A stretch of 64,000 bases of DNA from NCBI GenBank assembly GCA_036387335.1, contig DASVTZ010000157.1:1-64000 (forward strand). Direction: 5' to 3'. The position numbers and the translations under genes were made by a program. The stretch is from Longimicrobium sp. (GTDB lineage: Bacteria > Gemmatimonadota > Gemmatimonadetes > Longimicrobiales > Longimicrobiaceae). This document shows positions 237 to 59,223 of the stretch, piece after piece (the stretch's first letter is position 1; the number at the start of each line of letters is the position of its first letter). A model generated the notes under the pieces. The model was not told where the DNA came from, made no database searches, and was given only the letters and a program-made list of their open reading frames with translations.

Positions 237-632
237 ATGGAAGCAAGCGTGCCCGTCGCGCTCAGCCGCCGCGAACGCCAGATCATGGACATCGTCTACC
301 ACCGCGGGCGCGCCACGGCCGCCGAGGTGATGGACGACCTGGCAGATCCGCCCTCGTACAACGCCGTGCGCTCCGCGCTGCGGCTGCTGGAGGAAAAGGG
401 CCACCTTCGGCACGAAGAGGACGGCCGCCGCTACGTCTACCTCCCCACTACGCCGCGGACGAGGGCGCGCACGCACGCCCTGCAGCACCTCCTGCGCACC
501 TTTTTCGGCGGGAGCGCGGAGCAGGTGGTGAACGCGTTGCTGGACGAGACGAAGCTGTCCAAGGCGGAGCTGGAGCGCATGGCGGAGCGCATCCGCGAGG
601 CGCACGCGGAGGAAGAGGAGGAGGCCCGATGA
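237..632 (+). CDS. BlaI/MecI/CopY-family transcriptional repressor (locus 1)
   Basis: This 131-residue protein has the BlaI/MecI layout. A winged-helix domain spans roughly residues 8-80, with the family's RRERQIMDIVY opening, a recognition-helix segment SYNAVRSALRLLEEKGHL and the wing RRYVYLP. A charged helical C-terminus for dimerisation follows. Members repress their own operon and are inactivated by cleavage when the partner M56 membrane peptidase senses a signal. The stop codon overlaps the start of the M56 gene (ATGA at 629-632), so the two are translationally coupled. A 17-nt-spaced promoter lies at 166-194. The protein is clearly a paralogue of the regulator at 52313. The signal it responds to is unknown. 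Confidence 0.9.
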   Translation: MEASVPVALSRRERQIMDIVYHRGRATAAEVMDDLADPPSYNAVRSALRLLEEKGHLRHEEDGRRYVYLPTTPRTRARTHALQHLLRTFFGGSAEQVVNALLDETKLSKAELERMAERIREAHAEEEEEAR

Positions 633-2668
633 TCGAGTGGCTGGCGGGGGCCGGCGAGTTCGCGCTCGCGGTGACGCTCAAGGCGTCGCTGCTCGTGGTG
701 CTGGGATTCCTGGCGGCGGCGTTGCTGCGCGACCGGAGCGCGGCGCAGCGCCACCTGGTGTGGAGCGTCGCCCTCGCCGCGGCGGCCGCGATGCCGCTGC
801 TGCAGCTCGCCCTGCCGAGCATCGAGGTGGCGGTCCTCCCCGCGCCAGTCTCCGCGCCGGCAAGCGTGGTCGTGGCGAACCCCGTGGCACCGGCGGCGGT
901 CGAGGTACGGTCGGCGCCGGTGAGCACGACCGCTCCCGCCGCCGCGCCCGCGCTGCCAAGTCCTACCGTGCTGCTGGCGGGGCTGTGGCTGCTGGGTGTG
1001 CTCGCGCTGAGCGTACGGCTGGCGGCGGGCGTGCTGCGCGTGTGGTGGATCGAGCGCCGCTCCAGCGAGGTGACCGACGACGCGTGGGTGCGGCTCACCG
1101 ACACCCTTTCGCGGCGGCTGAAGCTGGGGCGCATCGTCACCCTGCTGCGCGCCGAGCCCGCGGCGGTGCCGATGACGTGGGGCGTATTCCGGCCGGTGGT
1201 GGTGCTCCCCGGCGAGTCGGCGGAGTGGGACGAGGAGCGGCGCACGGTGGTGCTGGCGCACGAGCTGGCGCACGTGCGGCGCTGGGACGCGCTCACGCAG
1301 TGGGTGGCGCACGTTGCGGTGGTCGTCCACTGGTACAACCCGCTGGTGTGGATGGCCTCGCGCCGCCTGCACGACGAGCGCGAGCGCGCCTGCGATGACG
1401 CGGTGCTCGCCATCGGCGCGCGTCCCTCCGCCTACGCGGACCACCTGCTGACGCTGGTGCAGTCGCTCGGCCGCTCCGAAGGGCCGGTGGCCGCGCTCGC
1501 GATGGCGCGCCGGTCGCAGTTCGAGGGGCGCCTCCTGGCCATCCTGGACCGCGCCATCCCCAGGCGCGGCGTGTCGCGCACGGCGCTGGCGTCCTCGGTG
1601 GTGCTCGCCCTGGCCGCCGCGGCGCCGCTCTCCGCGCTCCGGGCCACGCAGCGGACCGCGCCGGCTTCGCAGAATCACGCGCGCATGCCGTCGGCGACGC
1701 TGCCCGTAGCATCCACGGCCGCGCCCGGGGCGGGTCGCGCGCAAACGTCTGCCCGGACGGTGAAAGGCATGCCGGGTGCGCCGTCCACGACCGCGCTTCC
1801 GCCGGCCGCAACCGTCGCGGGCCGGGACACGGGTGACGTTTCGGAGATGCTGGCGGCCGTGGGGTTGATCGGCTCGTCGGAGGAGCGGACCCGGGTGCTG
1901 ATCGACCTGCTGACGTACCGGCGGCTCTCCCCCGGCGAGTCCGTCACGTTCCTGGAAAGGGCGGGCGAGATGGAGTCCGCGAACAGCGTGCACCGCGTGC
2001 TGGTGGCCGCCCTCGACCACCTTCCGATCGGCGAGCGGCGCGTGCGCGACGCCTTCTTCCGCGCCTTGGAGGGGATGGGCTCCAACGCGGAGAAGCGGGA
2101 CGTGCTGATCGCGGCGCTGCAGCGCTACGGCGATGATGTGGCGCTCGCCTCCGCCGTCTTCCGCGCGACCCACACCATGTCGTCGGACGCCAACCGGCGG
2201 GAGGTGCTGGTCGCCGGGGTGCAGGCGCGCCGGGTGGACGCCCGCACCCGCGGCGACTTCATGGCGGCGCTGGCGGCGATCCAGTCGGACTACGAGCGGT
2301 CGATGGTCGTCACCGCGCTCGGTGGGATGCCCGGCCCCACGACGACGACCGCGGCCGGCGGTGCCGTCTGGAACAGCACCACCACGCACCGTCACATCGA
2401 AGACGAAGTGGAGCGTTACCGGACCGTGCTCGCCGCGCGCAAGGTGCGCCTCAGCCCCGCGCGCGACGAGATCGCCGCGATCGCCGCGGGCGGCTCGTTC
2501 ACGCTGCACGAGACGCGTGCGGACGGGGGCAGCTCGCGGTCGCTCAAGGTGACGCCTTCCGCGTCCGGAGCGCTGCAGTACGAGTACCGTGTGGATGGCG
2601 CCGCGCGCCCCTTCGACGCCAGCGCCCGCACCTGGATGCGGGAGCTGATCCGCTCCAGCGCCAACTAG
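629..2668 (+). CDS. M56 (BlaR1-like) membrane metallopeptidase with C-terminal helical repeats (locus 1)
   Basis: This 679-residue protein begins with hydrophobic membrane segments (about residues 12-35, 42-60 and 112-132), followed by the M56 zinc-protease core with HELAH at residues 211-215 and the family's RRLHDERERACDD motif downstream. M56 receptors sense an external signal and trigger loss of a BlaI-type repressor, which here is encoded directly upstream with a 4-nt overlap. There is no penicillin-binding sensor domain of the classical BlaR1 kind. From about residue 414 to 566 there are instead repeats of about 34 residues sharing the pattern S-x3-R-x2-VL-x-A, predicted to form a helical solenoid. 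A short globular C-terminus ends the protein. The solenoid is a plausible extracytoplasmic ligand or partner-binding region; its target is not evident. Confidence 0.85.
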   Translation: MIEWLAGAGEFALAVTLKASLLVVLGFLAAALLRDRSAAQRHLVWSVALAAAAAMPLLQLALPSIEVAVLPAPVSAPASVVVANPVAPAAVEVRSAPVSTTAPAAAPALPSPTVLLAGLWLLGVLALSVRLAAGVLRVWWIERRSSEVTDDAWVRLTDTLSRRLKLGRIVTLLRAEPAAVPMTWGVFRPVVVLPGESAEWDEERRTVVLAHELAHVRRWDALTQWVAHVAVVVHWYNPLVWMASRRLHDERERACDDAVLAIGARPSAYADHLLTLVQSLGRSEGPVAALAMARRSQFEGRLLAILDRAIPRRGVSRTALASSVVLALAAAAPLSALRATQRTAPASQNHARMPSATLPVASTAAPGAGRAQTSARTVKGMPGAPSTTALPPAATVAGRDTGDVSEMLAAVGLIGSSEERTRVLIDLLTYRRLSPGESVTFLERAGEMESANSVHRVLVAALDHLPIGERRVRDAFFRALEGMGSNAEKRDVLIAALQRYGDDVALASAVFRATHTMSSDANRREVLVAGVQARRVDARTRGDFMAALAAIQSDYERSMVVTALGGMPGPTTTTAAGGAVWNSTTTHRHIEDEVERYRTVLAARKVRLSPARDEIAAIAAGGSFTLHETRADGGSSRSLKVTPSASGALQYEYRVDGAARPFDASARTWMRELIRSSAN

Positions 2669-2819: not shown

Positions 2820-2901
2820 CTCTCAAATGCCGGAAAACGTTTTCTGAACCGTCGTGAGTGCTGAAAATTCGGCACTGGTCCGCTACCCCAAAGGCACACC
2901 G

Positions 2902-5514
2902 ATGCGATCCCTCTCCTGGTGGTACACGATGGCGGCGGCGCTGGCCGTCCTGGCGCTCCCCGCGGCGGCGCAGGATGCGGCGCCCGCGCGCAAGCAGGCG
3001 CGGGCAGAGCGCATCGCCGGGCGCGCGCCGGTGATCGACGGGCGGCTGGACGACGAGGCGTGGAGCGCCGCCACACCCATCACCGACTTCACCCAGAAGC
3101 TCCCCACCGAAGGCGCGGCGCCCACCGCGGCGACCGAGGTGCGCATCCTCTTCGACGCCGCGTACGTCTACGTGGGCGCGCGGATGCAGGCGGTGCCGGA
3201 GGGGATCCGCGCGCCGCTCACCCGGCGCGACGTGCCGCTGCTGGCGGAGCACATCCGCGTCTCCTTCGACACGTACCTGGACCGCCGCACCGCGTACAGC
3301 TTCGGCGTGACGGCGGCGGGCGCGCGCATCGACGGCTACCACGGCGGCGACAGCGAGTCGATGGACTTCAAGTACGAGCCCGTCTGGGAGGTGCGCACCG
3401 CGCGCGACTCGGCGGGGTGGACGGCGGAGCTGCGCATACCGCTCAGCCAGCTTCGCTTCATCGCGCGCCCCGAGCAGACGTGGGGGCTCAACATCACCCG
3501 CTGGATCCCCAGCCGCGAAGAGAGCCTGTACTGGGTCGTCATCCCCGCCAGTCAGAGCGGCTACGCGTCTCGCTTCGGCGAGCTCACGGGGCTCAGCGGG
3601 GTGCGCCCGGTGCGCCGCATCGAGGCGATGCCGTACGTATCTACCGGCGCGACGCTGCGCAGCGGCGTGGACCCCGCCGATCCGTTCACCGACGCGCGGG
3701 AGGGCGCCGTACGCGCCGGCGCGGATCTCAAGGTGGGCCTGGGATCGAACCTCACGCTCGACGCCACCGTCAACCCGGACTTCGGGCAGGTGGAGGCGGA
3801 CCCGGCCGAGGTGAACCTGGGCGTGTTCGAGACCTTTTTCGGCGAGAAGCGGCCCTTCTTCACCGAGGGGAGCCAGCTCCTCTCGGGCGGCGGCAACAGC
3901 TACTTCTACTCCAGGCGCATCGGCGCGGCGCCGCGCGGCGCGGCCAGCGGCGACTTCGTGCGGCGGCCGGACGACTCCACCATCCTCGGCGCAGCCAAGC
4001 TGACGGGGCGCCTCCCCTCCGGCCTCTCGGTTGGCCTGCTGGGCGCGGTCACGGACCGGGAGCGGGCACGCGTCTACCACGCGGACGAGGACAGCGTGGC
4101 GCTGGTGGACGTGGAGCCGCGCACGGCGTACGCGGTGGGAAGCGTGCAGCAGCAGATCGGGAAGAGCGGCTCCACCATCGGCGCGACCCTCACCGCGGTG
4201 GCGCGGGACCTGGAGGGCGGCTCCCCGCTGGCGGCGCGCCTCCCCGCAGGCGCGTGGAGCGGCGGGGTCGATTGGGACCTGCGCTTCGGCAAGGGCGCGT
4301 ACCAGGTGAGCGGCTTCGCGGGCGGAAGCCACGTGCGCGGCGACTCGCTGGCCGTGCTGCGGCTCCAGCGGAGCTCCGCGCGCTACTTCCAACGCCCCGA
4401 TGCCGGCCACCTGGAGGTCGACCCGTCGCGCACCTCGATGGCGGGGTACACGGGCGGGCTGACCGTGGCGCGCATCAGCGGCGAGCACTGGCTGTGGAGC
4501 ACCGGCGCCAGCGTGGAGTCGCCGGGGCTGGAGCTGAACGATGCGGGGCAGCTCGCAACCGCAGACGACATCAGCGCGTACGCCCAGCTCCAGTACCGGC
4601 AGACGAAGCCGCGCGGCGCCTTCCGCAGCTACGACGTGTTCCTGACCTCCGACGCGGAGTGGAACCTGGACGGCGTGCGCATGGGCGGCGCGGTGGCGCT
4701 GGACGCGGTCGGCACCTGGCGCAACCGCTGGCGCAGCGACTTCAGCGCCTTCTACCAGCCCCGCGCGCAGAGCGTGAGTGCGTCGCGCGGCGGGCCGCTG
4801 GTGGGGACGCGGGCGCAGTGGGCCGTCATCAACCGGCTGGCCAGCAGCAGCGCGGCGCGGTTCCGCTGGAACGGGCGCGTCTACTACGGCGAGAACGAGG
4901 ACGGGCGCGCGACGTACCGGCTGAGCGGCGGCGTCGCGTTCCGCCCCGGCCCGCGCTGGCAGCTCTCCATCGACCCCAACTACCTGCGCACCACCCCCGT
5001 CCGCCAGTACGTCGCTACGCTGAACGATGGGCCGGAGGCGACGTTCGGGAAGCGCTACGTCTTCGCGTCGGTGGGGCGCAGCGAGTTCTTTGCGCAGATC
5101 CGCCTCAACTACCTCTTCACCCCGGACCTGTCGCTGGAGTTCTACGCCGAGCCGTTCGCGTCCAGCGGGCGCTACCACACCTTTGGCGAGCTGCCGTCGG
5201 CGGGGAGCCACGAGCTGGCGCTGTACGGAAGCGACACCACGCGCGTGCGGCGCGAGGGGAACTCCACGCGCGTCTTTGGCGCCCCGCGCGACGCGGTGGT
5301 GGAGGACTTCAACGTGCGCTCCTTTCGAAGCAACGCGGTGCTGCGCTGGGAGTGGCGGCGCGGAAGCTCGCTCTTCGTGGTCTGGCAGCAGGACCGCGCC
5401 GGCGAGCGCGACGAGATCGCTCCCGTCGGCGTGCGCTCGCTGGCGGAAGCGCTGGACGCGCCCGGCGACCACCGCCTTGCGATCAAGATGACGTACTGGA
5501 TTCCGGTGCGGTGA
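2902..5514 (+). CDS. DUF5916 outer-membrane protein with CBM9-like N-terminal domain (locus 1)
   Basis: The 870-residue product starts with a signal peptide (MRSLSWWYTMAAALAVLALP, cleavage after AAAQ). A CBM9/DOMON-like beta-sandwich domain follows, with the typical DGRLDDEAW entry and ILFDAAYVYVGARM. The DUF5916 region has the signature NPDFGQVEADPAEVNL followed by EKRPFFTEG. The last several hundred residues alternate like a transmembrane beta-barrel and end in an aromatic strand (MTYWIPVR). I chose the ATG at 2902 because it opens the signal peptide; an upstream in-frame GTG at 2854 adds only hydrophilic residues. Members are common in Gemmatimonadota and Bacteroidota; their substrate is not established. 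A close homologue lies at 56397, also downstream of a BlaI/M56 pair. Confidence 0.85.
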   Translation: MRSLSWWYTMAAALAVLALPAAAQDAAPARKQARAERIAGRAPVIDGRLDDEAWSAATPITDFTQKLPTEGAAPTAATEVRILFDAAYVYVGARMQAVPEGIRAPLTRRDVPLLAEHIRVSFDTYLDRRTAYSFGVTAAGARIDGYHGGDSESMDFKYEPVWEVRTARDSAGWTAELRIPLSQLRFIARPEQTWGLNITRWIPSREESLYWVVIPASQSGYASRFGELTGLSGVRPVRRIEAMPYVSTGATLRSGVDPADPFTDAREGAVRAGADLKVGLGSNLTLDATVNPDFGQVEADPAEVNLGVFETFFGEKRPFFTEGSQLLSGGGNSYFYSRRIGAAPRGAASGDFVRRPDDSTILGAAKLTGRLPSGLSVGLLGAVTDRERARVYHADEDSVALVDVEPRTAYAVGSVQQQIGKSGSTIGATLTAVARDLEGGSPLAARLPAGAWSGGVDWDLRFGKGAYQVSGFAGGSHVRGDSLAVLRLQRSSARYFQRPDAGHLEVDPSRTSMAGYTGGLTVARISGEHWLWSTGASVESPGLELNDAGQLATADDISAYAQLQYRQTKPRGAFRSYDVFLTSDAEWNLDGVRMGGAVALDAVGTWRNRWRSDFSAFYQPRAQSVSASRGGPLVGTRAQWAVINRLASSSAARFRWNGRVYYGENEDGRATYRLSGGVAFRPGPRWQLSIDPNYLRTTPVRQYVATLNDGPEATFGKRYVFASVGRSEFFAQIRLNYLFTPDLSLEFYAEPFASSGRYHTFGELPSAGSHELALYGSDTTRVRREGNSTRVFGAPRDAVVEDFNVRSFRSNAVLRWEWRRGSSLFVVWQQDRAGERDEIAPVGVRSLAEALDAPGDHRLAIKMTYWIPVR

Positions 5515-50666: not shown

Positions 50667-50750
50667 GTGGTCGAGCGATCACATCAGCTTACCACGCCAT
50701 CCGGCTCGTGTCCACCGCACGGGCGTCCCCTCCTCTACCGGCACCCTCCC

Positions 50751-51893
50751 ATGCAAGCTCCTCCCGCGCTTCAGAAGCCCGCGCACGTGATTCCCTTCAC
50801 GCTCCGGCACCGCCACATCCTGCTGGATGCATCGCTGAACGACCGCCCGGCGACGCTGATCCTGGACAGCGGGTCGAGCGTGACCACTCTCGACCGGAGG
50901 TGGAGCGCCACGCTGGGGCTGGAGGAGCGCCCGCTGCCGGGCGGTGCCAGCGGGGTGGGCAACGTGGATGCGGCGCTCGCGACGGTGGAGCGTCTCGGGA
51001 TCGGTTCGCTAGCGATGCCGGGTGAGACGGTGGCGCTGATGCCGCTCGGCAACGTGTCCGATGCGCACGGGATGCGGATCGACGGAACCGTGGGGTTCTC
51101 GCTTTTCGAGCGATTCGTGGTGGAGGTGGACGCTGCGGCCCGGGAGATCCGCCTTTACGAATCGGCCGGGTTCGCGTACGACGGGACCGGCACGGTGCTC
51201 TCCGTCCACCTGGACATGCGCGTGCCCGTGGTGCGCGCATCGCTGCGCGCTCACGACGACTCCGCGGAGCAGGTCCGGCTGGTGCTCGACCTGGGGACGG
51301 GCGGGTTCGACGTGCTGCTGACGGCGCCGTTCGGCGATGCGCATCGGCGGTGGTGGGAGGGGCGCGGCATCGAGCGGCCGCTGGGGAGCGGCGCCGGCGG
51401 TACGACGGTCGGGCGCGTGTGCACTCTCGAGAGCCTGGAGTTGGGCTCGATCGAGGTGCGCGCGCCGGTCGTCGCCGTAGCCCGCGAGCACGCGGGCTTC
51501 CTGGGCGCGACCTGGGCCGACGGCACCATCGGCGCGCCGGTTCTGGGGCAGGGGACGATCATCTTCGACTATTCGCGAAGGAGGGTGATCGTCGAAGGGG
51601 CGAGCTCCGCCAGGCGGGGCGCCTCGTTCGATGCCAGCGGGCTGGACTTGGTGTCGAGCGGAGCCGGGTTCGAGCGGGTCATCGTGCGCCACGTGGTCGC
51701 GGATTCTCCCGCGGCCGAGTGCGGTGTGCGCGCGGGTGACGAGATCACGGCGCTGGACGGATGCGCGGTGTGCGGTGCGGATCTGGACCGGGTCAGGGGA
51801 TCGCTGGCGCTGGCCGGGGAGACGAGGCACGTCGCGTGGCGGAGGGGCGGGGCGGGTTTTGAGTGCGAGCTGAGACTTAGAGTTCTCCTATGA
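50751..51893 (+). CDS. Retropepsin-like aspartyl protease with C-terminal PDZ domain
   Basis: The 380-residue protein shows two aspartic-protease half-folds. The first catalytic triad is Asp39-Ser40-Gly41 in LILDSGSSVTTLD, and the second aspartate is Asp180 in LVLDLGTGGFDVLL. A C-terminal PDZ domain follows (VADSPAAECGVRAGDEITALDGC). This two-domain layout with PDZ is common in bacterial retropepsin-like proteins. No signal peptide is seen from the ATG at 50751; an in-frame upstream ATG at 50667 adds a non-hydrophobic stretch. The second motif has Leu where Ser or Thr is usual (DLGTG), which may affect activity. Confidence 0.78.
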   Translation: MQAPPALQKPAHVIPFTLRHRHILLDASLNDRPATLILDSGSSVTTLDRRWSATLGLEERPLPGGASGVGNVDAALATVERLGIGSLAMPGETVALMPLGNVSDAHGMRIDGTVGFSLFERFVVEVDAAAREIRLYESAGFAYDGTGTVLSVHLDMRVPVVRASLRAHDDSAEQVRLVLDLGTGGFDVLLTAPFGDAHRRWWEGRGIERPLGSGAGGTTVGRVCTLESLELGSIEVRAPVVAVAREHAGFLGATWADGTIGAPVLGQGTIIFDYSRRRVIVEGASSARRGASFDASGLDLVSSGAGFERVIVRHVVADSPAAECGVRAGDEITALDGCAVCGADLDRVRGSLALAGETRHVAWRRGGAGFECELRLRVLL

Positions 51894-52245: not shown

Positions 52246-52298
52246 TTGACCTCACCCGCAAGGGATGCTAGTGTACTGACAGAATGTCAATACACTAG
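52246..52298 (+). promoter_or_regulatory. Promoter with overlapping dyad operator, BlaI locus 2
   Basis: TTGACC (52246-52251) and TAGTGT (52269-52274) are 17 nt apart. The -10 box lies in the left arm of a perfect inverted repeat: CTAGTGTA (52268-52275) with TACACTAG (52291-52298). A second inner inverted repeat (TGACA, GAA, TGTCA) is at 52277-52289. The position, overlapping the -10 and start site, is that expected for autorepression by the BlaI-like protein encoded 15 nt downstream. Confidence 0.8.
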
Positions 52299-52312
52299 CA
52301 TAGAAGGTGTGC

Positions 52313-52708
52313 ATGTCCGCTCCCTCGCAGTTCGATCTCGGGCGCCGCGAGCGCCAGATCATGGATGTGGTGTTCAGGCTGGGTAGGGCCACGGGGGCCG
52401 AGGTGCACGGGGCGCTCCCCGATGCGCCCAGCTACTCCGCGGTGCGCGGGATGCTGCGCCTGCTGGAAGAGAAGGGCTACCTGCGCCACGAGCAGGACGG
52501 CCCCCGCTACGTCTACCTCCCCACCGCCGCGCCTGGCGAGGTGAGCCAGACCGCGCTCCAGCACCTCCTGCAGACCTTCTTCGGCAACTCGCGCGAGTCG
52601 GCGGTGGCGGCGCTGCTGGAGCTGCCGGACCAGCCGCTTTCCGAAGACGAGTACCACCGGCTCTCACGCCTGCTGGACGAAGCCCGCGACCCCGCAGAGG
52701 ACGAATGA
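52313..52708 (+). CDS. BlaI/MecI/CopY-family transcriptional repressor (locus 2)
   Basis: The 131-residue product has the same winged-helix layout as the protein at 237: RRERQIMDVVFRLGRATGAEVH, SYSAVRGMLRLLEEKGYL, RYVYLP, and a C-terminal dimerisation helix. Sequence identity between the two is obvious by eye over the HTH. An in-frame GTG lies two codons upstream (52307), but the ATG at 52313 has a better placed GAAGGTG. The stop overlaps the M56 start (ATGA at 52705-52708). A dyad operator overlaps its promoter. Confidence 0.92.
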   Translation: MSAPSQFDLGRRERQIMDVVFRLGRATGAEVHGALPDAPSYSAVRGMLRLLEEKGYLRHEQDGPRYVYLPTAAPGEVSQTALQHLLQTFFGNSRESAVAALLELPDQPLSEDEYHRLSRLLDEARDPAEDE

Positions 52709-55563
52709 ACCCGCCTCCCATCTCCGCCGCCGAAGCGCTCGCCGTGCTCGGCCTGCTGGCCAAGGCCACGCTCGTGGTGGCCGTCGCCGGGCTGGCGGCC
52801 GCCTGCCTGGTGCACCGCGGCGCATCGGCCGCCACGCGCCACATGGTCTGGGCGCTCGCCATCGGCGCCGTGCTGTCGCTGCCGGTGCTCACGATGCTCC
52901 TGCCGGGGTGGCGGGTGGCCGTGCTGACCGAGACGGAGCCGATCCCCGCCTCGTTCTCCGCTCCCGCCGATCCGCTGTCGGCGGGGCCGGTGGTGGCGGA
53001 TGTGGCGCCGGAGGATGCCGCTCCCTCCACCGCGGCGCCGGCGGAGGTGCCCGCGCCCATCCGCGTGGAGTGGCTGCTGGCCGGGCTGTACGCGGCGGTC
53101 GCGCTGGGGCTGCTGGCGAGGGTGGCGGTGGGGCGGTGGAGCGTGGCGCGCCTGGCGAAGAGCGCGACTCCGCTGGACTCGCCCGAGTGGCGGGACATGC
53201 TGCGCGACCTGATGTGGGTGGCGGAGGTCGAGCGCCCCGTGCGCCTGCTGCGTAGCGACCTCGCCACGATGCCGATGACGTGGGGGACGCGGCACCCGAT
53301 CGTGCTCCTTCCCGCGGCGGCGGACGGATGGTCGGCCGACCGGCGGCGCGTGGTGCTGTTGCACGAGCTCGCCCACGTGGCGCGGCGCGACTGCCTGATG
53401 CAGACACTGGCGGCGCTGGCGTGCGCCTTCTACTGGGTGCATCCGGGCGTGTGGTACGCGGCGCGACGGATGCGCGCCGAGCGCGAGCTGGCGTGCGACG
53501 ATCGCGTGCTTGCGGCCGGCACCCGCGCGCGCAGCTACGCCGCGCACCTGCTGGAGGTCGCGCGCGCCTTTCGCCCGGCCGGCGGAGCGTCGCCGGTGGC
53601 GGTGAGCATGGCGCGCCCGTCGCAGCTCGAAGGGCGTATGCTGGCGGTGCTCGACGCCGTGCGCAGCCGCCGCACTCCGTCGCGGCGGACGAGCGCCGTG
53701 GCGGCCGGGGTCGCGCTCGTCGTCTCCGGGCTGATGGCGGCGGTGCATCCGGCGGTTGCCAAGGTGCTGCCCCGGATGTCGGCCGAGGCCGGTCAGCAGG
53801 AGCACGTGGTGGAGCGCACCGTCGCGGCACGGGCGGGCGGGCGGCTGGATCTGGTGATGGAGGATGAGGCCGGCGTCGAGGTGGTCGGGTGGGAGCGCGA
53901 AACCGTCTTCGTGCACGCCGAGTTCACCGGCGCGCGCGCGCGCGAGGGGCGGTTGGATGCCGTCGCGTCCGCGGGCGGGGTGCGCGTGACGGAGCGGCGC
54001 CCCGGTGGGGCCGGGCGCCACGACAAGCTGCGCATCTGGGTGCCGCGGCGCTTCGACGTGGCGGTGCGCTCCACGGGCGGCGGGCTGTCGATCCGCGAGG
54101 TGGAGGGCCGCTTCACCGGGACCTCCGGCGGCGACGGGCTGCACCTGGACCGGGTGCGCGGCACGGTGGACTTCGCCACCGAGGGCGGCGGGCTGATGGT
54201 CGCGCGGTCGCGGCTGGACGGCGAGATCCGCACTCGCGGCGCGGGCGCGCTTCTGGACCGCGTGACCGGTGGGCTGAACGTCGTGAGCAACGGCGCCGCC
54301 GTGGTGCGCGGACGCATCGAGACCGGTGACGGCGATGACGAAGCGAGCCCCGCGCCGAACGGGCAGCGCGTGCACGTGGTCTCCGATCCGGAAACGGAGA
54401 TGGAGCTGGACTGCACCGCCGGGACCTGCACGTTGACCAAGGAGTGGAAGAAGCCCGCGCGCGCCCGCTCCGGCGGCAACGGCTTCGCCTACCTCACCGG
54501 CACCGGTGAGGAGCGGCGCGCGTCGGTCGAGGCGCTCGCCCGCAACGCGCCCCCCGAAACCGCCGCAGTGGCGCTGGAGCGGCTCGCCTTCCAGGAGACG
54601 GACCCCGAGGTGCAGCGCGAGGCCGCCGAGTCGCTCGCGGGGTTGCCGGGCGAGGCGGGGTTGCAGGGGCTGCTCAAGATCGCCCGCGCGCATCCCGGCG
54701 AGGAGGCGCGCCGCGAGGCCGCGGAAGGGCTGGGGATGCTCGCCTGCGACGAAGCCATCGCTGCGTTGCGCCGGATGGTGGCGTACGATCGCGATCCCAC
54801 CGTGCAGGGCGAGGCGGTGGAGGCGCTGGCCGGCATCCTGGGGCGCGACGACGTCTCCAGCACGGCGCGCGGTGTGGTACGCGCCGCCCTCCGCGAGATC
54901 GCGCGCACGCACCCCGTGCCCAGCGTGCGCGCCCGGGCGCGCGCCGAGACGGGCGACGCGCCGCGCGAGATGTCGCAGGCAGTGCCCGCGACCGGGGAGC
55001 GGGTTCCGCTGGCGCCCGGCGCGCGCGAGCTGGCGCTGCGCAACGCTGCGGGCGCGTCGGGTGCGGATGCGGCCGCCATCCGCCGCCTGCGCCCCGCGCT
55101 CGACCGCGCAGCCACGAGCCCGGTGGACCTGGTGCAGGACCGCGCCACCTGGGCGCTCACGCAGGTGCGCGGCGGCGAGCTCATCCGCCCGCTCGTGAGC
55201 GCGCTGGGCGACGCGGACTGGCGGGTGCGCGCCTACGCCGCCTGGGCGCTGGGCGTCGCGGGGGAGCGCAGGGCGGTGGATGCGCTCGCCGGCGCCCTGC
55301 GCGACCCGAACTGGCGGGTGCGCGCCAACGCCGCTTCGTCGCTGGCGCAGGTGCCGGACGCACGCGCGGTGACGGCGCTCGGCTCCGTGCTGGGCGACCC
55401 CGCCTGGCAGGTACGCGCCGGCGCCGTCGACGCCCTCGCCGCCCTCGGCGACGCGCGCGCCATCGCGATGCTGGAGCCGCTGCTGCGCGATCCGCACATG
55501 GCCGTCCGCGGCGCCGCGGAACCCGCCATCGCCCACCTTCGAAGCTCACGGGCGCGCGGGTAG
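52705..55563 (+). CDS. M56 (BlaR1-like) membrane metallopeptidase fused to DUF4097-like and HEAT-repeat domains (locus 2)
   Basis: The 952-residue protein starts with M56 membrane segments and the zinc motif HELAH at 220-224, followed by RRMRAERELACDDRVL. A membrane segment (about 332-352) leads to a beta-rich region (about 370-580) with DUF4097-type repeating strands such as VRSTGGGLSIREVEG and VDFATEGGGLMVARSR. The rest (about 600-950) is HEAT/PBS-lyase-like repeats, for example DPNWRVRANAASSLAQV. No penicillin-binding domain is present. I infer that the two C-terminal domains face outward and form the sensor. It shares the BlaI-coupled start with the locus-1 homologue but has a different repeat type. 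Confidence 0.85.
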   Translation: MNPPPISAAEALAVLGLLAKATLVVAVAGLAAACLVHRGASAATRHMVWALAIGAVLSLPVLTMLLPGWRVAVLTETEPIPASFSAPADPLSAGPVVADVAPEDAAPSTAAPAEVPAPIRVEWLLAGLYAAVALGLLARVAVGRWSVARLAKSATPLDSPEWRDMLRDLMWVAEVERPVRLLRSDLATMPMTWGTRHPIVLLPAAADGWSADRRRVVLLHELAHVARRDCLMQTLAALACAFYWVHPGVWYAARRMRAERELACDDRVLAAGTRARSYAAHLLEVARAFRPAGGASPVAVSMARPSQLEGRMLAVLDAVRSRRTPSRRTSAVAAGVALVVSGLMAAVHPAVAKVLPRMSAEAGQQEHVVERTVAARAGGRLDLVMEDEAGVEVVGWERETVFVHAEFTGARAREGRLDAVASAGGVRVTERRPGGAGRHDKLRIWVPRRFDVAVRSTGGGLSIREVEGRFTGTSGGDGLHLDRVRGTVDFATEGGGLMVARSRLDGEIRTRGAGALLDRVTGGLNVVSNGAAVVRGRIETGDGDDEASPAPNGQRVHVVSDPETEMELDCTAGTCTLTKEWKKPARARSGGNGFAYLTGTGEERRASVEALARNAPPETAAVALERLAFQETDPEVQREAAESLAGLPGEAGLQGLLKIARAHPGEEARREAAEGLGMLACDEAIAALRRMVAYDRDPTVQGEAVEALAGILGRDDVSSTARGVVRAALREIARTHPVPSVRARARAETGDAPREMSQAVPATGERVPLAPGARELALRNAAGASGADAAAIRRLRPALDRAATSPVDLVQDRATWALTQVRGGELIRPLVSALGDADWRVRAYAAWALGVAGERRAVDALAGALRDPNWRVRANAASSLAQVPDARAVTALGSVLGDPAWQVRAGAVDALAALGDARAIAMLEPLLRDPHMAVRGAAEPAIAHLRSSRARG

Positions 55564-55602
55564 CCCCCGCGCACCGGATCCCTCAACCGAAAGCGCTTCA
55601 TC

Positions 55603-56361
55603 ATGCTAAAAATTTCGCACAGGAACGCCGCCCTGGCGCTCCTTACCGGACTTGCGTCCGTCATCGCGACCACATCGGACGCACAGACCATCGCACAGCA
55701 CGTGGCGTCAGTCCGCGACGGCACGGTGCAGATCCACTTCGCCGCGGCGCCGGGGGCGTGCGGCGATGGGCGGGCGGTGATCGGGCGGCGGCTGGCAGGC
55801 GGCGGGGTGGCGCTCTTCGTCCCCAACCTGACGCATCTCCCCGCGGATGCGGAGGCGGCATGCCGGCCCGGACCGGTGGGGGGGGCGCTGGGGGGGGCTG
55901 GCGGGCGGGTGGCTTCGGTGCGCGCCACGGCTGGCCCCGCACCACAGACACCCGCGGTGTGGGTGGCACCGGCCGATGCGAGCGCGTTCCTCCTCGACGT
56001 GGCGATGCGGAGCGATGGACAGGTCGCGCGGGGAGCGCTGGTGCCCGTCTTCCTGCTCGATGGCGACGGCGTGTGGCGCGGGCTGCTGCGGGTGGCGCGG
56101 TCGGCGCGCGCGCTTGAGGCGCGGAGCATGGCATCCAAGGAGCTCGGGCGGCGCGCGGCGGCCACCATCGCGGGCGGCGACCGCGGGCACCAGGCAGACA
56201 CGGAGCTATCCAAGAAGAACGGCGGCGAGGCGGAATGGCTCGTCATCGCCACGCGCGACGCGGACCCGGCACGCCGCCGCGCCGCGCTGCAGCTGCTGGG
56301 CAAGGACGGCACTCCGCGGGCGCTGGACCTCTTCGAATCGATCCTGGCCCGCGCACGATGA
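55603..56361 (+). CDS. Secreted protein of unknown function between M56 and DUF5916 genes
   Basis: The 252-residue product has a signal peptide (ALALLTGLASVIATTSDAQ) and a beta-rich first half (GTVQIHFAAAPGACGDGRAV, GVALFVPNLTHLPAD). A C-terminal helical part with one HEAT-like unit follows (DADPARRRAALQLLGKDGTPRALDLFESIL). It is not a known family to me. Two G8 runs (55878-55885 and 55890-55897) lie inside the gene and could cause slippage. Its stop overlaps the upstream in-frame ATG (56358) of the DUF5916 gene, so all four genes from 52313 probably form one operon. Confidence 0.65.
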   Translation: MLKISHRNAALALLTGLASVIATTSDAQTIAQHVASVRDGTVQIHFAAAPGACGDGRAVIGRRLAGGGVALFVPNLTHLPADAEAACRPGPVGGALGGAGGRVASVRATAGPAPQTPAVWVAPADASAFLLDVAMRSDGQVARGALVPVFLLDGDGVWRGLLRVARSARALEARSMASKELGRRAAATIAGGDRGHQADTELSKKNGGEAEWLVIATRDADPARRRAALQLLGKDGTPRALDLFESILARAR

Positions 56362-56396
56362 GCGCCGCCACCCATCACAGACCCACCGAGGCCGCC

Positions 56397-59123
56397 ATGC
56401 GCCGCATCCACCTCACGCTTCTCCTGATCCTCGCCTGCGCGCCCGCCGCCGCCGCCCAGGTGCCCGCCGACTCCGCCCGCGCCGCCACGCGCGCCATCCG
56501 CGCCGCGCGGGTGAGCGGAACGCTGCGCATCGACGGCAAGCTGGACGAGGCCGCGTGGGCGGCGGCCGGCGTGGCGGACGCCTTCACCGAAAGCTATCCC
56601 AACCCGCGCGCGGCGGCGCGGGAGCGCACCGAGGCCCGTATCCTCTTCGACGACGCGGCCGTGTACGTGGGCGTGCGGATGTACGACTCGCGCCCCGACT
56701 CCATCGCGGCCCAGCTGGCGCGGCGCGACGCCACCGGGATCTACTCGGACTGGGTGCACGTGATGCTGGACACCTATCACGACCGGCGCACCGGCTTCCG
56801 CTTCGCCGTGAACCCGCGCGGGGTGAAAAAGGACTCCTTCCACTTCGACGACACCAACGAGGATCTGAGCTGGGATGCCGTGTGGGAGGTGGCGACGCAG
56901 GTGGACTCGGCGGGGTGGACGGCCGAGTACCGCATCCCGCTGTCCCAGCTCCGCTACGGCTCGCGCGAGCCGGCCAGCGGGCGCGTGTGGGGCGTGCAGG
57001 TGCAGCGCGACGTAGCGCGGCGCGAGGAGCGCACCTCGTGGTCGCCGTGGACGCAGAGCGACGGCGGCTTCGTGTCGCGCTTCGGCGACCTGGCGGGGCT
57101 GGAGGGACTGCGCACCCCGCGCCGCCTGGAGATCCAGCCGTACACCAGCGCCCGCGTGGACCGCTCGCCGCAGGGGGACCCGGCGAATCCCTTCTTCCGC
57201 GCCAACGACATGACCGCGTCTGCCGGCGTCGACGTCAAATACGGGCTCCCCTCCGGCCTCACGCTGACCGCGACCGTCAACCCCGACTTCGGCCAGGTGG
57301 AGGTGGACCCGGCGGTGGTGAACCTGAGCGCGTTCGAGGTGCAGTTCCCGGAGCGGCGCCCCTTCTTCACCGAGGGCACCGACATCTTCCGCTTCGGCCA
57401 TCCCACCAACTCCTTCAACAACTACGGCTTCACGCAGCCGTTCTACTCGCGCCGCATCGGGCGGCGGCCGCAGCGTTCGCTGGGAGGGCGGATCGGCGAG
57501 GACGAGGTGCTCTTTTCCGACGCCCCGGAGCAGACGACGATCGCCGCGGCGGCCAAGCTGAGCGGGCGCACGCGGGGCGGCTGGTCCGTCGGCATTCTGG
57601 ACGCGGTCACCACGGGCGAGAAGGCCACCTATCTCGGCCGGCGCATCGTGGACGGTGACACGGTGCTGGGTGAGCGCTCGGCGCTGGTGGAGCCGCTCTC
57701 CAACTACTTCGCCGGGCGCGTGCGGCGCGACCTGCGCGGCGGGCAGAGCGTGGCGGGCGCGATGTTCACCTCCACCCACCGCGACCTGGGCGACGCGGCG
57801 CTGGGCGGGATGCTCCGCTCGTCCGCGTACATGGGCGGCGTGGACTTCGACCACTCGTGGGGGAAGCGCACCTGGGACCTGAACGGGTTCCTCTCCGGGA
57901 GCACCATCGCGGGGGAGCGCGGGGTGATCGCGGCGGCGCAGAACGCATCGACCCGCTACTTCGCCCGTCCCGATGCGGACCACCTGCGCCTGGACAGCAC
58001 CGCAACCCGGCTGGATGGGTACGCGGGCGCTCTGGCGCTGGCCAAAACGAGCGGCAAGCACTGGCTGGGCTCGCTCACCTTCCAGACGGTGAGCCCCGGT
58101 TTCGAGGTCAACGACGCCGGCTTCCAGACCCGCGCCGACTATCGCTCGCTGTCCACGTTCGTCATGTACCGCGAGACGCGGGCGGGGCGCCGCTTCCGCA
58201 ACTACAACGCGTTCGCGTACAGCAACCACGCCTTCAACTTCGGCGGCGATGAGATCTTCGAGTCGTACAACGTGGGCGGGAACGTGCAGCTCGCCAACTT
58301 CTGGACGCTGGGCGGCCGCGTGGGTGGGAGCCCGGAGTACTTCAACGACCGCCTGACGCGCGGCGGTCCGCTGGCGAGCGTGCCGGCGCAGTGGAGCACG
58401 GGGCTGAACGTGCGCACGGACAGCCGCAAGCGGGTGATCGGCGGGCTGAACCTGAGCTACCGCACCGACACGTCCGGCGAGTTCGACCACGTGGTGGGGG
58501 TGACGCTCGATGCCCGCCCCAGCTCGGCGGTGCGCGTTCGATTGGAGCCGCAGTGGGTCAACGAAAAGGACACGGACCAGTTCATCCGCTCCCTGCCCGA
58601 CTCGCTGGCGCGCGCCACCTTTGGCCGCCGCTACGTCTTCGCGGACCTGGAGCAGACCACGGTGGCGCTGGGGACGCGCGTGGACTGGACCTTTACGCCG
58701 CGCCTGAGCCTGGAGCTGTTCGCGCAGCCCTTCTTCGTGCGCGGCGACTTCCGCGACTACAAGGAGTTCGGGACGCCGGGCGAGTACCGCTTCCGCGTCT
58801 ACGGCCGCGACCGCGGGACGGCGGTTCGCAACGACACCACTGGCGTCATCACCCTCGACGCTGACGGCGCCGGCCCCTCCGCCCCCTTCCGTGTGGCGCG
58901 CGGCTTCGGCGAGCGCGACTTCTCGCTGCGCAGCCTGCGGGGCAACGCCGTGCTGCGCTGGGAGTACCGCCCAGGCTCCGTGCTCTTTTTCGTCTGGCAG
59001 CAGGACCGCAGCGGGCTGGACTTCACCGGCGACTTCATGGACGCGCGCAACGACGGCTCCATCCTGCGCGATCCGGCCCGCAACATTTTCCTGGTAAAGG
59101 CGACGTACTGGATCGGGGGGTGA
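56397..59123 (+). CDS. DUF5916 outer-membrane protein with CBM9-like N-terminal domain (locus 2)
   Basis: The 908-residue product has a signal peptide (RIHLTLLLILACAPAAAAQ) and the CBM9-like entry LRIDGKLDEAAW with ARILFDDAAVYVGVRMYD. The DUF5916 signature NPDFGQVEVDPAVVNLSAFE precedes ERRPFFTEGTDIF, and a long barrel region ends in a short aromatic strand (KATYWIGG). It resembles the protein at 2902 over its whole length. I start it at 56397, where GAGG stands 5 nt upstream and the signal peptide begins; an ATG at 56358 overlaps the previous stop. Its role, probably binding or passage of an external polymer or small ligand, is inferred from the fold. Confidence 0.88.
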   Translation: MRRIHLTLLLILACAPAAAAQVPADSARAATRAIRAARVSGTLRIDGKLDEAAWAAAGVADAFTESYPNPRAAARERTEARILFDDAAVYVGVRMYDSRPDSIAAQLARRDATGIYSDWVHVMLDTYHDRRTGFRFAVNPRGVKKDSFHFDDTNEDLSWDAVWEVATQVDSAGWTAEYRIPLSQLRYGSREPASGRVWGVQVQRDVARREERTSWSPWTQSDGGFVSRFGDLAGLEGLRTPRRLEIQPYTSARVDRSPQGDPANPFFRANDMTASAGVDVKYGLPSGLTLTATVNPDFGQVEVDPAVVNLSAFEVQFPERRPFFTEGTDIFRFGHPTNSFNNYGFTQPFYSRRIGRRPQRSLGGRIGEDEVLFSDAPEQTTIAAAAKLSGRTRGGWSVGILDAVTTGEKATYLGRRIVDGDTVLGERSALVEPLSNYFAGRVRRDLRGGQSVAGAMFTSTHRDLGDAALGGMLRSSAYMGGVDFDHSWGKRTWDLNGFLSGSTIAGERGVIAAAQNASTRYFARPDADHLRLDSTATRLDGYAGALALAKTSGKHWLGSLTFQTVSPGFEVNDAGFQTRADYRSLSTFVMYRETRAGRRFRNYNAFAYSNHAFNFGGDEIFESYNVGGNVQLANFWTLGGRVGGSPEYFNDRLTRGGPLASVPAQWSTGLNVRTDSRKRVIGGLNLSYRTDTSGEFDHVVGVTLDARPSSAVRVRLEPQWVNEKDTDQFIRSLPDSLARATFGRRYVFADLEQTTVALGTRVDWTFTPRLSLELFAQPFFVRGDFRDYKEFGTPGEYRFRVYGRDRGTAVRNDTTGVITLDADGAGPSAPFRVARGFGERDFSLRSLRGNAVLRWEYRPGSVLFFVWQQDRSGLDFTGDFMDARNDGSILRDPARNIFLVKATYWIGG

Positions 59124-59139
59124 TACCGGTAAAGGAAGT

Positions 59140-59211
59140 CTCACGCGGAGCCGCGGAGACGCAGAGAGAGATTCAGCCCCTCTCCTTCGCGTCTCCGCGT
59201 CTCCGCGTGAG
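59140..59211. repeat. Intergenic hairpin with iterated-word arms (CGCGGAG type)
   Basis: CTCACGCGGAGCCGCGGAG and following (59140-59170) pair with the reverse-complement arm at 59180-59211. It lies between the convergent DUF5916 and NTF2-like genes, exactly as the hairpin at 5526-5613 does in locus 1. Confidence 0.8.
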
Positions 59212-59223
59212 CCCATTCTGTCT

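Follow-up and report, generated by a model that had tools for sequence, protein, structure and literature searches.

Sensor tails of BlaR1-type M56 proteases tend to match the neighbouring secreted protein: a predicted BlaI-controlled operon with a toastrack–HEAT tail in Longimicrobium

The 64,000-nucleotide stretch of Longimicrobium sp. analyzed here (assembly GCA_036387335.1, contig DASVTZ010000157.1, positions 1 to 64,000; hereafter the window) encodes two membrane proteases of the Peptidase M56 (BlaR1) family, and the right-hand one (P0001, 52705-55563) is our subject, together with the secreted protein encoded behind it (P0003, 55603-56361). Both loci carry the same BlaI-M56-DUF5916 cassette, and among related loci (given as L numbers) the secreted protein encoded next to the protease tends to share the domain type of the protease's C-terminal tail; both observations go beyond the initial annotation of this DNA. 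Based on a computational analysis of gene order, domains, catalytic residues, predicted topology, operators and matched pairs, we suggest, with a probability of about 0.5, a BlaR1/BlaI-type circuit whose non-penicillin sensor would be a tethered copy of the secreted partner.

Tails of M56 proteases and their secreted neighbours

A family set of loci was picked by similarity to P0001, and 80 named loci were added through patterns from alignment A1. A class set of 40 regions was drawn by M56 score from the class-wide PF05569 list outside the family; seven of these (L148, L154, L155, L159, L161, L173, and L183) had no M56 gene under our own caller and profile. The collection held 160 M56 genes with a core, from which 8 with tails shorter than 100 residues were removed, and the remaining 152 were reduced to 136 at 85% identity.

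A co-directional next gene follows 79 of these 136 non-redundant M56 proteins, and in 27 of the 79 it is similar to the M56 tail by blastp (in 26 of the 27 this is the first such gene), a share that is not the rate for the phylum because the family and named sets were chosen by similarity or pattern. When the pairs were shuffled 500 times the matches averaged 3.3 and never exceeded 9, and among upstream genes 1 of 122 matched. In the class sample alone, a tail-like next gene was found for 6 of the 27 M56 genes with a co-directional neighbour. The likeness can be close: tail and partner are 72% identical over 357 residues in L172 and 70% over 236 in L180, both from the class set, 61% over 236 in L095 and 47% over 368 in L178. 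Wherever both members of a pair could be assigned to a domain class the class was the same (26/26), although the profiles for the repeat classes IHG and PROP were made from matched partners, which favours the detection of same-class pairs. There are also 16 classed tails with an unclassed next gene, the orthologous pair of the window included, and ten unclassed tails with a classed next gene; L176, L177, L179, and L182 are among these ten, and in eight of the ten the next gene falls in the beta-propeller class.

The matching involves several domain types, here described first for the window's family. Helical repeats of the kind found in the left-hand protease of the window occur on both tail and next gene in L016, L078 (twice), L080, L082, L086-L088, and L103, HEAT repeats on both in L079, L081, L083, and L091, and the IHG repeat on both in L074 and L095. 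In L066 and L184 an M56 protein with toastrack and HEAT is followed by a DUF4097 protein (Pfam). Matches between tail and partner extend to Acidobacteriota (L197, L207, and L213) and to a KSB1 record (L209). A signal-peptide-like start was seen in 26 of the 27 partners, by a loose rule that is also passed by 150 of 300 control genes. DUF5916 proteins are also tied to this position: one of the three co-directional genes that come next behind M56 encodes such a protein in 22 of 79 cases, and upstream it is found in 0 of 122.

The right-hand cassette

The features of the right-hand locus are as follows.

52246-52274, + strand: candidate promoter (TTGACC, 17-base spacer, TAGTGT; found by eye), with its -10 element inside the left operator
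52266-52281 and 52285-52300, no strand assigned: two BlaI-type operators, inverted copies of one 16-mer with starts 19 bases apart (dyad pattern)
52307-52708, + strand: regulator of the BlaI/penicillinase-repressor family (PF03965, E 3.4e-24); the start may be 52313
52705-55563, + strand: P0001, M56 (BlaR1-type) membrane protease of 952 residues (PF05569, HEAT_2, HExxH..ExxxD, four hydrophobic helices)
53797-54309, + strand: toastrack/DUF4097-type beta domain of P0001, residues ~365-535 (profiles, AlphaFold2 model)
54505-54954, + strand: first HEAT block, residues ~601-750 (Pfam HEAT_2, AlphaFold2 model)
55171-55557, + strand: second HEAT block, residues ~823-951 (Pfam HEAT_2, AlphaFold2 model, Foldseek)
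55603-56361, + strand: P0003, secreted, 252 residues, with an unknown N-terminal domain and a probable degenerate HEAT end (signal-peptide-like start, profiles)
55604-55619, + strand: BlaI-type dyad overlapping the P0003 start codon (dyad pattern)
56358-59123, + strand: secreted CBM9-like and DUF5916 protein (PF19313, E 9.4e-67; PF06452, E 3.9e-12), in ATGA overlap with P0003

All four genes (BlaI, M56, P0003, CBM9-DUF5916) thus lie in a row on the + strand, and the last product is presumably an outer-membrane barrel. The length of 952 residues given to P0001 by the initial annotation stands: the open reading frame has no internal stop, overlaps the preceding BlaI gene by ATGA, and encodes a Peptidase_M56 core (PF05569, residues 32-313, E 1.9e-31, 109.8 bits against a cut-off of 31). 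A frame artefact, which had been raised as a possible objection, was excluded by the intact frame, its coding bias rich in guanine and cytosine (GC), and the orthologue L064, which keeps the frame in a near-identical cassette with 91% identity of the M56 protein. Two long reverse-strand frames (55233-59216, 1327 residues, and 52513-55536, 1007 residues) appear to be shadows of the GC-rich genes opposite, and the codon-based gene caller passed over both. Just 5' of the operon, at 50667-51893 on the + strand, lies a gene for an aspartyl-protease-like domain with a PDZ domain.

P0001 has an HExxH motif at residue 220 and ExxxD at +41/+45 (H220, E261, and D265), and this arrangement is found in all 136 non-redundant M56 proteins. 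Its four hydrophobic helices are at residues 12-30, 48-66, 124-142 and 329-347, and the core reaches to residue ~313. P0001 as a beta-lactam sensor was ruled out: Pfam gives no match to a penicillin-binding (class D-like) domain, and the NCBIfam model blaR1_generic scores 79.9 bits against a cut-off of 400.

Domains and orientation of the sensor tail

The tail of P0001 spans residues ~355-952 and consists of a beta domain followed by two HEAT blocks; the point at which the tail had originally been marked, 53765, is residue 354, just behind the fourth membrane helix. The HEAT repeats proposed there were borne out by the search of the C-terminal part, with HEAT_2 (PF13646) matching four stretches above the cut-off (E 2.2e-37) in agreement with the structure model and with Foldseek, whose top PDB matches for the tail model are alphaRep/HEAT designs; the 50 matches listed are all HEAT or armadillo and are uninformative on the beta domain. 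The beta domain required a less direct route, as PF13349 (DUF4097) has no direct match on P0001 at a threshold of E 10 in Pfam. A profile built solely from the beta regions of 10 M56 proteins matches free-standing proteins in L028 (3.6e-13), L138 (7e-11) and L175 (2.5e-6), all of them DUF4097 by Pfam, and in L068, a related M56 protein, DUF4097 passes the Pfam cut-off. The AlphaFold2 model of the tail (9 sequences) shows the beta domain with a predicted local distance difference test score (pLDDT) of ~90, together with disordered linkers and a predicted template modelling score of 0.41. By homology through its relatives and by this model, the region is of toastrack/DUF4097 type, as the initial annotation had described it.

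The relatives also bear on where the HEAT part came from. Alignment A1 shows two layouts: a longer toastrack with one short HEAT-like end in L065, L067, and L068, and a shorter toastrack with more HEAT in P0001 and L064. The HEAT part of P0001 therefore probably grew from the short HEAT-like end present in these relatives, and the earlier idea of a fresh graft of HEAT repeats onto the core was rejected.

Another question is which side of the membrane the tail faces. BlaR1 has both termini outside and its protease facing the cytoplasm (PMC9834060). In P0001 positive charge lies ahead of the fourth membrane helix and little of it behind (hydropathy and charge), and among the 136 M56 proteins the net positive charge is higher before than after the last transmembrane helix in 125 and equal in 8. 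Four helices with N-out/C-out topology and an extracytoplasmic tail are therefore predicted for P0001, which agrees with the extracytoplasmic sensor first proposed. The opposite arrangement has been put forward for toastrack domains in general, which PMC11237479 argues to be intracellular, and a cytoplasmic tail would sense an internal signal. We consider this very improbable here, given the charge pattern around the fourth helix, the C-out structure of BlaR1 (PMC9834060) and the 26 of 27 tail-like partners with a signal-peptide-like start, loose as that rule is (150 of 300 control genes pass it). The M56 fusions thus predict an extracytoplasmic toastrack, contrary to the intracellular placement argued for in PMC11237479.

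P0003 and its relatives in sigma factor operons

The HEAT-like end noted earlier in the protein at 55603 appears to be present in degenerate form: HEAT_2 finds one weak stretch (E 0.005, 17.5 bits against a cut-off of 27.7), and homologues of P0003 pass the cut-off (8.2e-16 and 2.6e-11). The profile of the P0003 family is the one search that reaches the HEAT part of P0001 (full score 2.8e-11, best stretch 6e-8). The window's own pair of tail and partner is thus a weak case, its degenerate HEAT being seen by profile alone. AlphaFold2 gave P0003 on its own a mean pLDDT of 36.9 and this model was not used.

Homologues of P0003 occur in 65 of 198 genomes of the class. Of 20 such loci 16 were usable (L128, L135, L137, and L143 had no gene meeting the full-length rule), and in these a HEAT gene lies directly 5' in 16/16 and an extracytoplasmic function (ECF) sigma factor within four genes in 13/16. 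Operons of ECF sigma factors in L125-L143 end in two HEAT proteins of unequal length. In the genome of the window itself, contig C118 (L028, 4297-9355) carries ECF, zf-HC2 (anti-sigma-like), DUF4097 and DUF5916 genes in a row. Two other loci (L138, 10879-13769; L175, 978-3983) have an ECF sigma factor, a zf-HC2 protein and two tandem DUF4097 proteins, and in L139 (3193-10567) an operon of sigma factor, anti-sigma-like protein and two HEAT proteins lies convergent to a BlaI-M56 pair whose tail is of the left-hand type. ECF and BlaI/M56 loci hold the same modules, and therefore the same secreted modules come under either control; we infer that P0003 probably moved from an operon of the ECF kind into one of the BlaI/M56 kind.

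Putative operators and promoter

The right-hand promoter has 2 operator matches, a number reached by 0 of 100 shuffles. Single sites are weak, with 10 dyads in the window against 4 expected and 4 of 100 shuffles reaching 10. With at most one mismatch allowed, 84 of 132 loci (not de-duplicated) have the dyad TGCTR-N6-YAGCA upstream of BlaI, but it was derived from these same upstream regions, so that the independent test is solely that of the gene after M56: here 12 of 79 first genes have the dyad, the sites at 2859 and 55604 included, and of 1312 other gene starts 19 do (Fisher p 2.9e-8). Where sites are paired upstream of BlaI in relatives, a spacing of 18 or 19 bases dominates. The 16-mer at 55604 recurs exactly before the partner gene of L184 and with one base different in the orthologue L064. 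Genome-wide the exact dyad pattern is not enriched (28 sites against 67 for a control pattern), and only some of its sites are at BlaI promoters. By its gene order and the dyads at its promoter, the right-hand locus is predicted to be a BlaI-controlled operon.

Exchange of tails on the M56 core

To the initial annotation, the two M56 proteins of the window looked like a case of sensor exchange on a common core. When the tail classes are placed on a tree of 118 cores, 27 changes are required, against a mean of 56.7 after shuffling; the tails are therefore inherited yet often replaced. The clearest case is L095, whose core sits inside a HEAT clade (support 99/99 and 100/100) and whose tail and partner are both of the IHG type, alike each other as given above and both unlike their HEAT sisters. 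In this general form the exchange is supported. It fails for the window pair as recent duplicates with swapped tails, since the left protein belongs to a clade of tails like its own (support 99*) and the right one, placed through its 91% orthologue L064, groups with the DUF4097 M56 proteins.

The tail is closer to its own partner than to every other tail in 4 of the 27 matched operons; in 9 of 27 its own neighbour is its best secreted match. In the other 18 the best secreted match sits in another operon, and therefore recent copying is clear in few operons. Copying from next door is thus recent in some operons, and in most the pair is older and co-inherited. Taken together, sequence comparison supports exchange of the sensor on the M56 core, with the sensor tending to match the neighbouring secreted protein.

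The left-hand cassette and other copies

The left-hand locus reads as follows.

184-199 and 202-217, + strand: two tandem BlaI-type operators (dyad pattern)
237-632, + strand: BlaI (PF03965, E 1.2e-28)
629-2668, + strand: M56 protein of 679 residues with a different helical repeat tail (PF05569, E 3.1e-38)
2854-5514, + strand: CBM9-like and DUF5916 protein (PF19313, E 3.1e-67); the start may be 2929
2859-2874, + strand: BlaI-type dyad at the DUF5916 gene (dyad pattern)

We assign the two loci to one cassette type because both read BlaI, M56, a secreted protein where there is one, and CBM9-DUF5916. The left tail has no Pfam match and is one of a family whose repeats recur every ~35 residues (by eye), so that the two M56 proteins do carry different solenoid tails, as first noted. 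The C-terminal end of the left-type tail (window 629-2668; L016, 573-4101) is similar to the N-terminal region of the secreted partners; by eye, and by one blast match in L084 between tail end and partner start, the two modules of the tail seem to recur in the partner in reversed order. Across the genome, 265 contigs totalling 5.82 Mb, there are 15 matches to M56 and 10 to DUF5916, of which two are parts of a single gene. A third BlaI-M56-DUF5916 cassette lies on its contig C195.

Proposed mechanism and alternatives

The regulation, the cleavage of BlaI, the shared ligand and the role of the barrel are the inferred parts of the following proposal. BlaI would repress the cassette by sitting on dyads in two places, its own promoter and the gene that first follows M56. 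The toastrack-HEAT tail would bind an envelope ligand or protein in the periplasm, and binding would activate the cytoplasm-facing zinc protease, which would cleave BlaI and so derepress P0003 and the barrel-like DUF5916 protein. The sensor is seen as a tethered copy of the secreted partner because tail and partner carry the same domain type across relatives; both may then read one ligand, and new sensors might arise when a neighbouring secreted gene is copied onto the M56 core.

Several observations weigh against this proposal. In 52 of the 79 cases blastp finds no matched next gene, and the closest DUF4097 M56 relatives of P0001 (L065, L067, and L068) lack a co-directional next gene altogether. 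The toastrack M56 of L200 is followed by a HlyD-type protein. In the window itself, neither blastp nor phmmer detects similarity between the P0001 tail and P0003, which is also unclassed in the domain-class comparison, and the 18 of 27 tails with their best secreted match in another operon count on the same side. HEAT and toastrack are moreover common binding modules, and therefore a common fold is no proof of a common ligand.

The shared fold of tail and partner is open to another explanation, in which the signal is the secreted partner. This protein would dock on the look-alike M56 tail and hold the protease off until drawn away by damaged envelope or cargo, which would make a feedback loop in place of two receptors sharing a ligand. 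Docking would fit with HEAT and toastrack being scaffolds that bind proteins (for toastrack, PMC11237479) and with the operator that the partner genes too carry. However, partners repeated two or three times (L078, L178, and L207) suit a bulk effector better than a dosed signal; we regard docking as rather unlikely. It can also be asked whether the match has any functional meaning, as tandem duplication and fusion of neighbouring genes would be frequent in these GC-rich genomes and common periplasmic repeats could fall on both proteins by chance. The 52 unmatched proteins and the abundance of HEAT repeats in the class can be read in this way, but chance pairing yields a mean of 3.3 matches against the 27 observed, the upstream neighbours match in 1 of 122 cases, no classed tail adjoins a partner of another class, and several unrelated domain types follow the same rule. 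A match empty of function is thus improbable. The tethered copy of a secreted partner is the reading we prefer.

The known role of BlaR1 is to sense antibiotics. The loci described here point to a large group of M56/BlaI circuits whose sensors would respond to envelope signals, and to a rule for finding effector and ligand: look for the neighbouring secreted gene with the sensor's fold. Matched pairs at 60-70% identity make the idea of a shared ligand directly testable. One effector set (DUF4097, HEAT, and DUF5916) also appears under two unrelated controls, ECF sigma factors and BlaI/M56. A broader view, which we offer tentatively and hold to be less than an even bet, is that M56/BlaI is a general plug-in receptor of Gemmatimonadota, Acidobacteriota and others, its sensor repeatedly copied from the secreted protein it controls and sharing that protein's ligand, with BlaR1 as a special case. 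In the titles and abstract openings of the literature searched we found no report of matched sensor and partner domains; nothing was found on BlaR1 or Peptidase M56 with a HEAT repeat, nor on DUF5916.

Comparison with known systems

In BlaR1 sensing falls to the outer domain, the zinc protease on the inner side cuts BlaI, and expression of the operon follows (PMC9834060). The window locus shares with BlaR1/BlaI and MecR1/MecI the M56 zinc protease, with the HExxH..E...D spacing of BlaR1 H201/E242/D246 (PMC9834060), as well as the four membrane helices, the outside C-terminal domain, the adjoining BlaI-family repressor and the dyad operators, and the window M56 would likewise cleave BlaI on binding its ligand. 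It differs in the sensor, which is toastrack and HEAT in place of a penicillin-binding domain, and downstream, where a secreted repeat protein and a DUF5916 protein are encoded and no beta-lactamase. The BlaR1 sensor is related to the class D beta-lactamases, an effector-type enzyme (PMC5957439), and the fold match of tail and partner suggests in the same way that both read one ligand.

The ECF sigma/anti-sigma operons of the class resemble the window locus in their paired HEAT or paired DUF4097 proteins and in their homologues of P0003, which are the last gene in those operons. Their control is by sigma and anti-sigma factors, whereas the window has BlaI/M56 and the first member of the pair fused to the sensor. 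The toastrack proteins of the phage-shock and Lia systems (DUF4097/DUF2154/DUF2807) share the type of beta domain and a part in membrane stress signalling (PMC11237479); they are proposed to be intracellular, whereas the toastrack of the window is predicted to be extracytoplasmic and is fused to a protease and to HEAT repeats.
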